Assembly (NCBI GenBank): GCA_949538735.1
Contig: CATGLK010000001.1
Location: forward strand, 62,001-126,000
Direction of reading: 5' to 3'
Length of the DNA stretch: 64,000 nucleotides
From: an uncultured Clostridia bacterium
Lineage (GTDB): Bacteria; Bacillota; Clostridia; TANB77; CAG-508
The first letter of the stretch is position 1. Every line of letters starts with the position of its first letter. A model generated the notes under the pieces. It saw nothing but the letters and a program-made list of their open reading frames with translations, had not been told where the DNA came from and searched no databases. This document shows, one piece after another, positions 8,284 to 51,238 of the stretch. Both the position numbers and the translations under genes were made by a program.

Positions 8284-8339
8284 TTGGGACAATTGGGGAC
8301 GTTTCTTTTTGGACATTTTGTCCATTTGGGGACACATCA
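8284..8339. repeat. GGGAC repeat, family D
   Basis: Copy of the family TTGGGGACGTTTCCTTTTGG...GACATTTTGTCC...GGGACACATC in the divergent yabG-spoIIID gap. It contains the internal palindrome GGACATTTTGTCC. Other copies lie at 12980-13030, 34553-34606, 38260-38311, 49139-49190 and 51188-51238. Confidence 0.85.
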
Positions 8340-12979: not shown

Positions 12980-13030
12980 GTCCATTGGGGACGTTTCCTT
13001 TTGGACATTTTGTCCACTTTGGGACACATC
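12980..13030. repeat. GGGAC repeat, family D
   Basis: Family-D copy (GGGGACGTTTCC...GGACATTTTGTCC...GGGACACATC) between cdsA and rseP. It lies just upstream of the rseP ribosome binding site and creates a spurious in-frame N-terminal extension of rseP. Confidence 0.85.
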
Positions 13031-34554: not shown

Positions 34555-34606
34555 GGACATTTGGGGACGTTTCCTTTTGGACATTTTGTCCATTTTGGGA
34601 CACATC
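34553..34606. repeat. GGGAC repeat, family D
   Basis: Family-D copy (GGGGACGTTTCCTTTTGGAC, then ATTTTGTCCATTTTGGGACA) starting at the spoVAC stop and filling most of the spoVAC-spoVAD gap of an otherwise tight operon. Confidence 0.85.
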
Positions 34607-38259: not shown

Positions 38260-38311
38260 GTCCCATTGGGGACGTTTCCTTTTGGACATTTTGTCCATTT
38301 TGGGACACATC
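38260..38311. repeat. GGGAC repeat, family D
   Basis: Family-D copy ending about 15 bp before the rpmI ribosome binding site, within the infC-rpmI transcript. Confidence 0.85.
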
Positions 38312-45993: not shown

Positions 45994-47100
45994 TCAAGCG
46001 AATTTTGTCAAACCTGACCGCCTAGGTTGAAACTTTTTCGGTCTGTCACGAAAGGTTTTAATTGGAATTAAAAACAAAGCTCCAACTATTATTGGCAAAT
46101 AGAAAGTATACATTCTCCAAAATAAAATAGACATATTAATTGTACCTTCTTTAAAAATTGATTGGAACAACAAATAAAATCCACCTTCTGCACCAAGACC
46201 TGAACCAGGTGTTGGAATAAACATCATTATTAGTAGCAATACTGCTTGTGTTGGGATGATTTGCCAAAATGTTACTCCACTATTTCCAAATGCTTTATAC
46301 ACCATATATGTTATTGAATAATATGCAAAGCTTTGAATTGTAGCAGAAATAAACATTTTCAAAACCATTTTTTTCTCTTGCTTCATATATAAAAATTGTT
46401 CTCTAAAATTATCTATACTTTTGTCTAACTTTTCTATTGTTTGTTCTGGATGTTTTAATATATGTATTTTTCCTAGAAATTTTATTATTGGTGTTGTAAA
46501 AAATGTTATTATTCTTTTCTTAATTCCTACCAAAATTACTCCTATTATAGCTAATATGTTCACACTAAATCCAGCAACTGCCACCCAAATGTATTGTTGC
46601 ATTAATCCAGCAAAAAATTGAAATTCAAATAATACTACAACTATTGTACTTACCACTAGTGCTGTTTGCGTAATTATGAATTTCATTGCCATTGCTGATA
46701 ATGAATCACTTACCCTTTTCCCTGTTTTGCTTAGCTCATATGCTTGCATTGGCTGTCCACCTGATGCGAATGGCGTTATATTATTAAACAATTGCCCAAT
46801 CATTGTTACTTTGAATGCATTTTTAAATGTTTGCTTTTCATACATTCTTTTTAGCGGAATGTATAGTGTAATTGCATCACAAATCCAATTTATTCCTAGA
46901 CATACTATTCCTAGCATTACCCATTTGTAATCAACGCTTTTTAGCACTTGTATTATGTTGTCTATTCCATCAACACTGAACATATATATTAGTAATCCTA
47001 TAAATATTACTAATATTAATGCGAAATTTATTATTGTCATTTTTTTGTTGACTGGCTTTTTTTCTTGCACTTGCTCGTTTTCTATTTTTTGTTCTTCCAA
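45994..47100 (-). CDS. Lysylphosphatidylglycerol synthase TM-domain (UPF0104) protein
   Basis: About 350 residues with eight or so membrane helices, related to the flippase half of MprF and AglD. Conserved TPFASGGQPMQAYELSKTGK and FIPTPGSGLGAEGGFYLLFQ. Starts at TTG 47100 (after GGGAGAG). The last 20 residues (TFRDRPKKFQPRRSGL...) come from a degenerate GGGAC repeat, so the native end was probably at about residue 347. This tail holds the only in-frame CGG not followed by A (CGGT, 46020-46017); +1 reading there stops after GQV. Confidence 0.85.
   Translation of the reverse strand: MEEQKIENEQVQEKKPVNKKMTIINFALILVIFIGLLIYMFSVDGIDNIIQVLKSVDYKWVMLGIVCLGINWICDAITLYIPLKRMYEKQTFKNAFKVTMIGQLFNNITPFASGGQPMQAYELSKTGKRVSDSLSAMAMKFIITQTALVVSTIVVVLFEFQFFAGLMQQYIWVAVAGFSVNILAIIGVILVGIKKRIITFFTTPIIKFLGKIHILKHPEQTIEKLDKSIDNFREQFLYMKQEKKMVLKMFISATIQSFAYYSITYMVYKAFGNSGVTFWQIIPTQAVLLLIMMFIPTPGSGLGAEGGFYLLFQSIFKEGTINMSILFWRMYTFYLPIIVGALFLIPIKTFRDRPKKFQPRRSGLTKFA
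46003..46057. repeat. Degenerate GGGAC repeat supplying a protein C terminus
   Basis: CCTAGGTTGAAACTTTTTCG then GTCTGTCACGAAAGG resembles the family-B unit AAACTTTTTTGGCCTGTCCCAAAA with mutations. It is read through by the UPF0104 gene. Confidence 0.6.
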
Positions 47101-47142: not shown

Positions 47143-48417
47143 TTAGTCAATATATAAATCTTTATCAACATTCTCTTTTGTCTTTCTTTTGTTACAAATA
47201 TTATCAACATCTTCTATTGTATTACTAATTATTTGCTTCGAACGAATCTTGGTAATTTCTGTAGGTCCTTCCTTATATTGTTTTAACACTTCTGTACCTT
47301 CTATTGTTCTTTTTGGTACTGTTCGTCCTTCTGCCATCTCCAAACCTGCATTTCTTGCATAAAATATCCCACGGTCTAAAGCTCCTTGTAAATCCGAATA
47401 ACCCTTTTGCCTATAACTCTTTGAATTTAGATACTGAATATATTCTTTACCTGATGAATGCAATGTGTTAATAGCACGTGAATATAGTTTATGCCCTGCA
47501 TAATTTAGTGGACTTACAAAGTCAAAATCATTTACTTCAAATCTATTAATATCTTTTTTATCCCCTATTGATATTCTTAAGTAGTTTCTCCAATTGTATT
47601 GAATTGCTCCTGATACTATTTTGTCCACGTTTTCTCTATTAAATCTGTTTTTTATTTCCGCCATTGTATTTCCTGTTCCTATATTGTCATCTAGCAACAG
47701 TACTGTTTTTCCCTTTTCAAAAATTCTATTTGAAGACATTAATGACCTTATAGTTTTTGTATCAGTATGGGTTGTTTCTTCAATATATTTGCTTTTTAAC
47801 AAATTCGTAAAATCATATCCATACATTTCTTTTATAAATGGTCCTATATATACACTTCCATAACCAGGTGTTAAAACTTCTATATTGTCTAAACCTTTTT
47901 TCAAATTTAATGATTTCAGAAACGTATATAGCATAGCTTTGTTGTCCATTTCAATAGCTCTTCTTTCTGAGTTTTCTTCTCCTTGTGGTAAAATGTTTTC
48001 TTTTTCTACCTTTATTAAACCTTTTCCTTCTAAAAGCACTAAAATATTTTTGACATCTTCCATTAAGCATTTCTCTGCTTTTGTTAGTTTATTTATAAAT
48101 TCGTCATTTTTGTTGTTTTTTATATATTCTTCAAATTCTCTAAAATAAACTTTTGCTGAGCAATTTAGCATATTTTCCAATATAACAAAATTCTTTTTGT
48201 TTAGCCTTCTTGTGAGTAGTTTTTTTAATTCTTCTCTTTCCTGTGATAATTCAGTCATACTTTTTACATTATAATATTCTTTTGATCTTGATAGGTACTC
48301 TCTATCATTTTCATTTTTCTCGATAATTGGTGTTACATATTTTTCTATCCCTTTTACATCCTTTAAATTTATTATACCTACAATATCAAAGTCTTTTAAT
48401 TCCAATTTTTCTTCCAT
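47143..48417 (-). CDS. Phosphoribosyltransferase-domain protein, unknown system
   Basis: 424 residues. A helical, charged N-terminal half (about 40-140) without known family is followed by a type I phosphoribosyltransferase-like domain (about 170-330): LTPGYGSVYIGPFIKEMYG and the PRPP loop VLLLDDNIGTGNTM (about 235-250). The C-terminal part (DRGIFYARNAGLEMAEGRTV) is basic. ATG 48417 overlaps the upstream NADAR gene stop in TAATG, so the two products are made together. Function unknown; the pairing suggests nucleotide or ADP-ribose chemistry. Confidence 0.75.
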   Translation of the reverse strand: MEEKLELKDFDIVGIINLKDVKGIEKYVTPIIEKNENDREYLSRSKEYYNVKSMTELSQEREELKKLLTRRLNKKNFVILENMLNCSAKVYFREFEEYIKNNKNDEFINKLTKAEKCLMEDVKNILVLLEGKGLIKVEKENILPQGEENSERRAIEMDNKAMLYTFLKSLNLKKGLDNIEVLTPGYGSVYIGPFIKEMYGYDFTNLLKSKYIEETTHTDTKTIRSLMSSNRIFEKGKTVLLLDDNIGTGNTMAEIKNRFNRENVDKIVSGAIQYNWRNYLRISIGDKKDINRFEVNDFDFVSPLNYAGHKLYSRAINTLHSSGKEYIQYLNSKSYRQKGYSDLQGALDRGIFYARNAGLEMAEGRTVPKRTIEGTEVLKQYKEGPTEITKIRSKQIISNTIEDVDNICNKRKTKENVDKDLYID

Positions 48418-49037
48418 TATTCCTCTTCTTCCTTTAAAAAGTCTTTTAAACAATTCAATTCTTTTTCAAACTCATATCTTGTAAATACTGTTTCGCTCTT
48501 TTCCCTTGTTCCCATCGTATGTATAATCAGCTTATCACATTTTAGTAAAACATTTCTATATAATGGATTTTGAATTGCAGATATATATAGTTCATCCACT
48601 AAATCATCATACTGTTCACTAAATCTATCTATTGCTTCACCTTGCCAATAAATTATTCCTGTACCTTTCCAATCCCAGTCACTACAAATCTTTATATGAT
48701 TTGATGTTAATCCACTATAATTAAATACTAAATTTTGCATTTCGACATCTCTAAATTTTATTCCTTGGAAAAATGATTCTATGCTTTGTAGTTTCTTTCC
48801 TTTAAATTCAAATTCATATGGAAATAAGTTCGACAATACTTTTGCATATGGTCCACTATGTTTGAAACCTGCATTTATCCATTTTTCACACTCTCCAACT
48901 TCTTTTCCTTCTTCATTAACTAATGGCTCTCCTTCATAATAATTGCCATCTTCTCTTTCTTCTACTTCTTTTAATTCGTATTGATAATTTTCTTTGAACT
49001 TTTTAAATTCTTTTAATTCTTTTTCTATTTTATTCAT
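48417..49037 (-). CDS. NADAR (YbiA/DUF1768-like) domain protein
   Basis: 206 residues from ATG 49037, after AAAAGGAGA. N-terminal coiled coil (about 1-30), then a NADAR-like domain: VLSNLFPYEFEFKGKKLQSI followed by ESFFQGIKF, and a WDWKGTGIIYWQGEAIDRFS region. NADAR domains act on N-glycosidic ADP-ribose-type substrates; some remove ADP-ribose from guanine in DNA as DarT antitoxins. The match is partial (changed C terminus). Operon with the downstream phosphoribosyltransferase gene. Confidence 0.72.
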   Translation of the reverse strand: MNKIEKELKEFKKFKENYQYELKEVEEREDGNYYEGEPLVNEEGKEVGECEKWINAGFKHSGPYAKVLSNLFPYEFEFKGKKLQSIESFFQGIKFRDVEMQNLVFNYSGLTSNHIKICSDWDWKGTGIIYWQGEAIDRFSEQYDDLVDELYISAIQNPLYRNVLLKCDKLIIHTMGTREKSETVFTRYEFEKELNCLKDFLKEEEE

Positions 49038-49090
49038 ACTATTTCTCCTTTTATTTTTTCCAATTATATCACAACTCACATAGAAAAAAC

Positions 49091-49120
49091 AGAAAAACAA
49101 GCTAAAAATTTAGCTTGTCT
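49091..49120 (-). terminator. Terminator of the ferredoxin gene
   Basis: GACAAGCTAAATTTTTAGCTTGTTTTTC on the minus strand; perfect 10-bp stem plus T-run. Confidence 0.8.
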
Positions 49121-49138
49121 GATAATTCTTTTAGAAAG

Positions 49139-49190
49139 ATGTGTCCCAAAGTGGACAAAATGTCCATTTGGAAACGTCCCCAATGGGACA
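49139..49190. repeat. GGGAC repeat, family D
   Basis: GATGTGTCCCAAAGTGGACA then AAATGTCCATTTGGAAACGT and CCCCAATGGGAC, ending one base before the ferredoxin stop codon, i.e. in its 3' UTR. Confidence 0.85.
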
Positions 49191-49361
49191 TTATTCCTCA
49201 ACTGGTGCTTCTACTGGACAAACACCTGCGCAAGTACCACAGCTAATGCAAGCTGATTGGTCTATCACGAATTTATCATCACCTTGTGATATGCAACCTA
49301 CTGGACATTCTGCTGCACAAGCTCCACAAGATATACATTTATCTGTAATTTTATATGCCAT
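49191..49361 (-). CDS. 2[4Fe-4S] ferredoxin
   Basis: 56-residue clostridial-type ferredoxin. CISCGACAAECPVGC and CISCGTCAGVCPVEA carry the eight ligand cysteines. ATG 49361 after GGGAGGTGA. Likely electron acceptor of the pyruvate:ferredoxin oxidoreductase encoded nearby. Confidence 0.95.
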   Translation of the reverse strand: MAYKITDKCISCGACAAECPVGCISQGDDKFVIDQSACISCGTCAGVCPVEAPVEE

Positions 49362-51187: not shown

Positions 51188-51238
51188 TGTCCCAAAATGG
51201 ACAAAATGTCCAAAAGGAAACGTCCCCAATGGACACTA
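51188..51238. repeat. GGGAC repeat, family D
   Basis: TGTCCCAAAATGGACAAAAT then GTCCAAAAGGAAACGTCCCC and AATGGACA, ending in the lepB 3' end. Confidence 0.85.

Follow-up and report, generated by a model that had tools for sequence, protein, structure and literature searches.

The NADAR-phosphoribosyltransferase (PRTase) gene pair found in the 64,000-nucleotide stretch of DNA of an uncultured Clostridia bacterium analysed here (the window) is tentatively interpreted as the central part of an accessory module, specific to its lineage, that handles a small nucleotide-like N-riboside, a reading to which somewhat less than even weight is given. Type I PRTases form or cleave 5-phosphoribosyl bonds and NADARs hydrolyse ribosyl N-glycosides. 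The PRTase would transfer the 5-phosphoribose of PRPP to a nitrogen of an amine or base, or work in the opposite direction, and the gp30.3-type NADAR would hydrolyse such an N-glycosidic bond, the product being removed or recycled. Many loci also have a dedicated YjjX-type paralogue, which probably dephosphorylates a related purine triphosphate, and in one lineage a HisA-like domain would take the place of NADAR. We infer that PRTase and NADAR work on one product and that this is a small molecule, and infer the direction of flow likewise; what the pair does together probably has to do with unusual small molecules resembling nucleotides, and not with DNA repair.

Organization of the gene pair

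The features of the region in the window are as follows.

49095-49120, minus strand: hairpin with T run, resembling an intrinsic terminator; closes the upstream ferredoxin gene
49063-49068, minus strand: perfect -10 hexamer TATAAT, 25 bases 5' of the NADAR ATG
48417-49037, minus strand: NADAR gene of T4 gp30.3 type, first of the pair (206 aa; PF08010, E 1.1e-27)
47143-48417, minus strand: type I PRTase gene, second of the pair (424 aa; PF00156 above cut-off)
47956-48417, minus strand: family-specific N-terminal helical region of the PRTase (residues 1-154)
47665-47691, minus strand: PRPP-binding loop DDNIGTGNT (PRTase residues 243-251)
45994-47100: LPG-synthase-like membrane protein gene, next gene downstream of the pair

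The sequence-only reading had described a NADAR-like gene and a gene for a PRPP-loop protein overlapping in TAATG, and both are indeed present and share one base. The NADAR gene begins with ATG at 49037 and ends with TAA at 48417-48419, and the PRTase gene begins with ATG at 48415-48417 and stops at 47143, so that the stop of the former and the start of the latter have a single A in common. A purine-rich ribosome site is present for each gene. Longer versions starting from upstream TTGs (436 aa for PRTase, 227 aa for NADAR) are found in the list of open reading frames; the alignments favour the ATGs. Because the terminator-like hairpin, which sets the pair apart from the upstream ferredoxin gene, and the TATAAT hexamer both stand before the NADAR ATG, the pair is probably expressed as a two-gene transcript, as judged from sequence. 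The hexamer has no good -35 and is absent from the promoter scan output. Purifying selection on both genes is indicated by dN/dS, which is about 0.16-0.30 in the PRTase and 0.07-0.27 in NADAR; some of the pairs compared approach dS saturation.

A dispersed palindrome-rich intergenic repeat (TGTCCCAAAGTGGACAAAATGTCCA...) lies at 49138-49200 (plus strand), with further copies in the window at 8310-8334, 13002-13026, 34578-34602, 38283-38307 and 51188-51212. Six copies in the window compare with 0 expected, and the whole genome holds at least 41 matches, probably more; the repeat is possibly a mobile or regulatory element.

The NADAR protein

The assignment of the first gene product to the NADARs is upheld by its match to PF08010 (Phage_30_3; 97 bits against a gathering score of 36) and by the presence of the predicted active-site residues E87, K94 and H173. 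It also matches phrog_652 (E 8e-16) and, by tblastn, 737 phage records; the NADAR alignment had no match among viral contigs, and the PDB sequence search, profile search included, gave none. Residues E87, Q91, K94, W123 and H173 are conserved with the phage members in the alignment. The window and nearly all linked, solo and phage rows retain the predicted catalytic E87, K94 and H173; at K94, L046 has N and L126 has R. Residues E88, K95 and D171 have been shown to be important in the NADAR of E. coli C7 (PMC11543638). In its last strand the window NADAR carries His (H173) where the DarT1-linked subfamily has a catalytic aspartate; the gp30.3 proteins, a phage subfamily of NADARs, likewise have His in place of the last-strand catalytic Glu/Asp (PMC11125620). 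With the equivalents of the catalytic residues conserved at E87, K94 and H173, the window NADAR is likely to be enzymatically active.

The YbiA-type NADAR attacks riboflavin intermediates, cleaving their N-glycosidic bonds (PMC11543638). In vitro, T4 gp30.3 was reported to hydrolyse ADP-ribosyl-guanine carried in DNA, but it did not rescue cells from DarT1 (PMC11125620); the in vitro activity makes a macromolecular substrate of the NADAR possible.

The PRTase protein

The second gene product had been taken from the sequence for a PRTase, an identity now substantiated by PF00156 (E 1.1e-6, 28.5 bits against a gathering score of 26.3, residues 169-284), by a confident structural model and by fold matches to type I PRTases. 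PF00156 matches 10 of the 16 PRTase members at E up to 0.05. The PRPP loop of the window protein shows the two acidic residues and the TGxT pattern (DDNIGTGNT); it is altered to DDNVGSCNT or DDNVASCNT in one clade and reads DGNIG(T/S)G in the HisA-fused clade, and because of these alterations in two clades the activity of the PRTase may vary among them.

The AlphaFold2 model of the window PRTase, built with 16 homologues, has pLDDT 87.6 and pTM 0.89. Its VIA fold search gave Z 9.0-9.6, the best match being PyrR (Z 9.6, rmsd 3.3, 133 aligned), and the closest solved folds, at Z near 9, are PyrR, 6-oxopurine and orotate PRTases and PRPP synthetases, with many HPRT and OPRT rows among the matches. 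Foldseek with the same model found nothing below E 1e-3 (best E 3e-3). Z values near 9 to PRTases, together with a Foldseek E of only 3e-3, support a predicted type I PRTase core that is divergent. The NCBIfam top match is PRPP synthetase (E 3e-5). Matches to PRTase_2 (PF15609; 21.9 bits, cut-off 28.8) and PRTase-CE (14.9 bits, cut-off 27) are below their cut-offs, the weak similarity to PRTase_2 being found in 9 of the 16 members. Weak matches of the PRTase to Cas1, interferon and metacaspase were set aside as chance.

An unrecognised N-terminal domain had also been proposed for the PRTase. Residues 1-154 indeed have no match in Pfam or the other profile libraries searched, and no match of their own in the whole-model fold search; the region is confidently predicted as three long helices (54-67, 74-100 and 105-130, at high pLDDT, with many invariant residues in the region) that pack with the PRTase core. 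Since the first aligned residues lie near 11 in many PRTase rows of the fold search, the helices appear to form an insertion that follows the opening element of the PRTase fold.

Conserved pairing and distribution

The coupling proposed from the single locus holds among homologues, NADAR adjoining PRTase in all 16 intact PRTase loci outside a HisA-fused trio, in both gene orders. NADAR precedes PRTase at 10 loci, the window included, with measured gaps of -1 to 6 bases and of 40 in one; at the other 6 the PRTase comes first, with an extra N-terminal domain either fused or separate. Among 145 genomes of the family of the window, PRTase occurs in 8, NADAR in 10 and both in 6, adjoining in all 6, a co-occurrence beyond chance (hypergeometric P 5e-7, which ignores kinship). 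At one further locus (L052) the PRTase is frameshifted and NADAR is missing.

The NADAR-PRTase module is restricted to a single family of uncultured (gut) Clostridia. The genome-contig scan gave 18 PRTase loci, all from uncultured Clostridia or a mollicute-labelled bin, and in the order-wide sample PRTase was found in 15 of 316 genomes, all of the window's family. The class-wide sample added a single, distant PRTase relative with a low E-value, and in the phylum-wide sample the window NADAR subtype was found at E 1e-6 in the window's own genome only. The PRTase has no matches in plasmids, phages or viral contigs, and carriage of the pair by phage or plasmid was rejected on this ground. The distant PRTase relative, a stand-alone protein of 412 aa (L109:8889-10127) from another family of the class, has an arsenic-resistance-like operon nearby.

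Recurrent neighbours of the pair are anaerobic ribonucleotide reductase, GMP synthase (guaA) and cytidylate/thymidylate-kinase-like proteins, as well as Nudix, type I phosphodiesterase and PHP proteins. These nucleotide enzymes agree with the reading of the pair as acting on a nucleotide-like metabolite, their recurrence being partly owing to shared synteny.

Most of the PRTase-first loci examined have a HIT-like gene (E 0.02-0.04 only), a WG-repeat protein and an alpha/beta hydrolase nearby. A larger gene group surrounds the reverse-order pair in L046 (5609-11756), L048, L050 and L051, comprising an alpha/beta hydrolase, a WG-repeat protein ending HIT-like, a 430-residue domain, PRTase, NADAR and a HIT-like protein, often with a radical SAM gene nearby. 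The 430-residue N-terminal domain had no match in the searches; it gives the impression, and only that, of a transglutaminase-like C/H/D pattern.

Fusion of PRTase to a HisA-like domain

In a divergent trio of loci the PRTase is part of a single kinase-PRTase-HisA-like protein, with no NADAR adjoining.

L054:9362-11605: kinase-PRTase-HisA-like fusion
L053:842-3046: kinase-PRTase-HisA-like fusion
L141:919-3123: kinase-PRTase-HisA-like fusion

The kinase part is a small-molecule-kinase-like domain, and the HisA-like domain matches PF00977 (E 4e-19) and solved HisA (E 4e-10). HisA enzymes rearrange N-phosphoribosyl glycosylamines. The occurrence of one PRTase family with either NADAR or HisA argues that the PRTase would yield an N-phosphoribosyl compound, and this alternation of partners, as far as sequence can tell, is the strongest hint of such a product. 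With NADAR coupled to one PRTase and a HisA-like isomerase to a related one, a concrete prediction of bond and product can be made, which bears on the question, raised in the literature, of what stand-alone and phage gp30.3-type NADARs act on (PMC11125620, PMC11543638).

A HAD-like gene lies next to the fusion in L054 and L141, and fusion and HAD-like gene together form a probable uncharacterised biosynthetic operon.

A YjjX-type paralogue and the purine alternative

A YjjX-type gene precedes the pair in 8 of the 10 loci with the gene order of the window (L037, L038, L039, L040, L042, L043, L044 and L045). The copy of L037 is a clear member of the YjjX (PF01931) ITP/XTP phosphatase family (E 2e-36, 125.7 bits, cut-off 25). 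The cassette copies form one clade, with support of 100/97, apart from the chromosomal YjjX genes of the same family, and this separation argues for their co-inheritance with the pair, and several genomes have a chromosomal YjjX in addition to the cassette copy; the cassette gene thereby differs from ordinary YjjX in its own clade and its place beside NADAR-PRTase. The genome of the window has only the chromosomal copy, and a YjjX-type gene stands beside a PRTase fragment in G133. That no YjjX adjoins the pair in the window or L041 counts against the module reading, as does the altered PRPP loop of two clades.

The dedicated paralogue raises the alternative of repair and salvage of aberrant purine nucleotides, in which YjjX would dephosphorylate ITP/XTP-like nucleotides, NADAR would free the base and PRTase would re-attach it to PRPP. 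The 6-oxopurine PRTases among the best fold matches and the nearby guaA, ribonucleotide reductase and nucleotide kinases also speak for it. However, purines are already salvaged by standard PRTases, and the PRTase motif lacks the aspartate that stands before TG in 6-oxopurine PRTases. The sporadic distribution would be unusual for a housekeeping function and NADAR persists without PRTase, and purine repair and salvage is considered a possible but unlikely role of the pair.

Variable presence of the pair

Three solo NADARs of family genomes fall inside the linked clade of the NADAR tree, from which the PRTase has probably been lost at least twice. The flanks of G103 and L037 are mostly 95-97% identical; YjjX and PRTase are found beside NADAR in L037 only, NADAR alone being kept at the locus in G103. 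The pair is broken in G027. No intact PRTase of the NADAR-linked clades occurs without NADAR, whereas NADAR does persist without PRTase, and this asymmetry suggests that the product of the PRTase would need NADAR, as antidote or as next step. The retention of NADAR without PRTase is no less compatible with an antidote than with a metabolic step.

A toxin-antitoxin or defence role, in which the PRTase would phosphoribosylate a nucleic acid, protein or metabolite with toxic effect and NADAR would remove the mark, as a PRPP-based parallel of DarT1-NADAR, is in keeping with several of these observations. The genes overlap, presence and absence shift among near relatives such as G103 and L037, the intact PRTase was not found without NADAR or a HisA domain while NADAR stands alone in three family genomes, and the PRTase weakly resembles retron PRTases and PRTase-CE. 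NADARs have been shown to be antitoxins in two other pairs (PMC11543638, PMC11125620). Such a role, though possible, appears unlikely, as the neighbours are housekeeping or nucleotide genes and not defence genes, the NADAR has His instead of the DarT1-type aspartate, the PRTase homologues with HisA replacing NADAR suggest metabolism, and no PRTase matches were found in plasmids, phages or viral contigs.

Comparison with known systems

The suggestion from the sequence that the pair might serve DNA de-ADP-ribosylation, if beside DarT, found no support: DarT (PF14487) has no match in the 145 family genomes, the window's included (the search control matched in 1 of 14), and no restriction gene was seen beside the pair. 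DarT-linked DNA repair was rejected for want of a PF14487 match in these genomes. The DarT1-NADAR and YarT-YbiA toxin-antitoxin operons likewise couple a NADAR to an expected maker of an N-ribosyl bond. Their partner is an NAD-using ADP-ribosyltransferase and their NADAR has Asp/Glu, whereas the window has a PRPP-type PRTase and His.

Handling of NAD or ADP-ribose was also considered, with the PRTase taking ADP-ribose pyrophosphate rather than PRPP and rebuilding or modifying NAD-like molecules, and NADAR removing ADP-ribosyl adducts (compare NARP1). In its favour are the binding of ADP-ribose by NADAR (PMC11543638), the occurrence of ADP-ribose pyrophosphate as a real metabolite (PMC12774641) and PRPP synthetase as the top NCBIfam match of the PRTase. 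However, the ATP-binding half of the synthetase is missing from the PRTase, the core of Namat is Nampt-like and unlike the type I PRTase of the window, and no NAD gene was seen adjoining the pair, which together leave this role very unlikely.

The Ter-system PRTase_2, a predicted maker of a nucleoside-like metabolite, shares with the present family its weak similarity and a HAD-like gene, here beside the HisA-fused clade; the window PRTase is below the family cut-off, and no Ter genes were recognised among the neighbours inspected. Similarity to PRTase-CE and the retron III-A PRTase is weak, lies around the PRPP loop and is below cut-off, and no reverse transcriptase was recognised among the neighbours read by eye (window and L026-L054).

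The T4 gp30.3/PF08010 NADARs belong to the same Pfam family and have the same predicted catalytic set, His included (PMC11125620). The window NADAR differs from T4 gp30.3 in being bacterial, N-terminally extended and PRTase-coupled, and the phage gp30.3 genes inspected have T4-like phage genes around them, none annotated as a PRTase. The NADAR and PRTase families are known, and their combination is new as far as found. The nearest earlier remark is that E. coli ybiA is in one operon with ybiB, of predicted PRTase activity (PMC11125620); among open papers, none was found that couples a gp30.3-type NADAR with a PRTase as seen here, and a description elsewhere is possible.

A PRPP-dependent counterpart of DarT-NADAR, in which phosphoribosylation of a base or macromolecule by the PRTase would act as toxin, signal or mark, to be erased by the gp30.3-type NADAR, is judged improbable. 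If true, NADARs would be phosphoribosyl-glycohydrolases in addition to ADP-ribosyl hydrolases, and there would be a reason for the presence of gp30.3 in T4-like phages.

Two other gp30.3-type NADARs, with an N-terminal zinc-ribbon-like CxxC, are found in other families of the order (L126:6212-6760 and L125:6435-7079), and that of L126 adjoins a Nudix-like gene.
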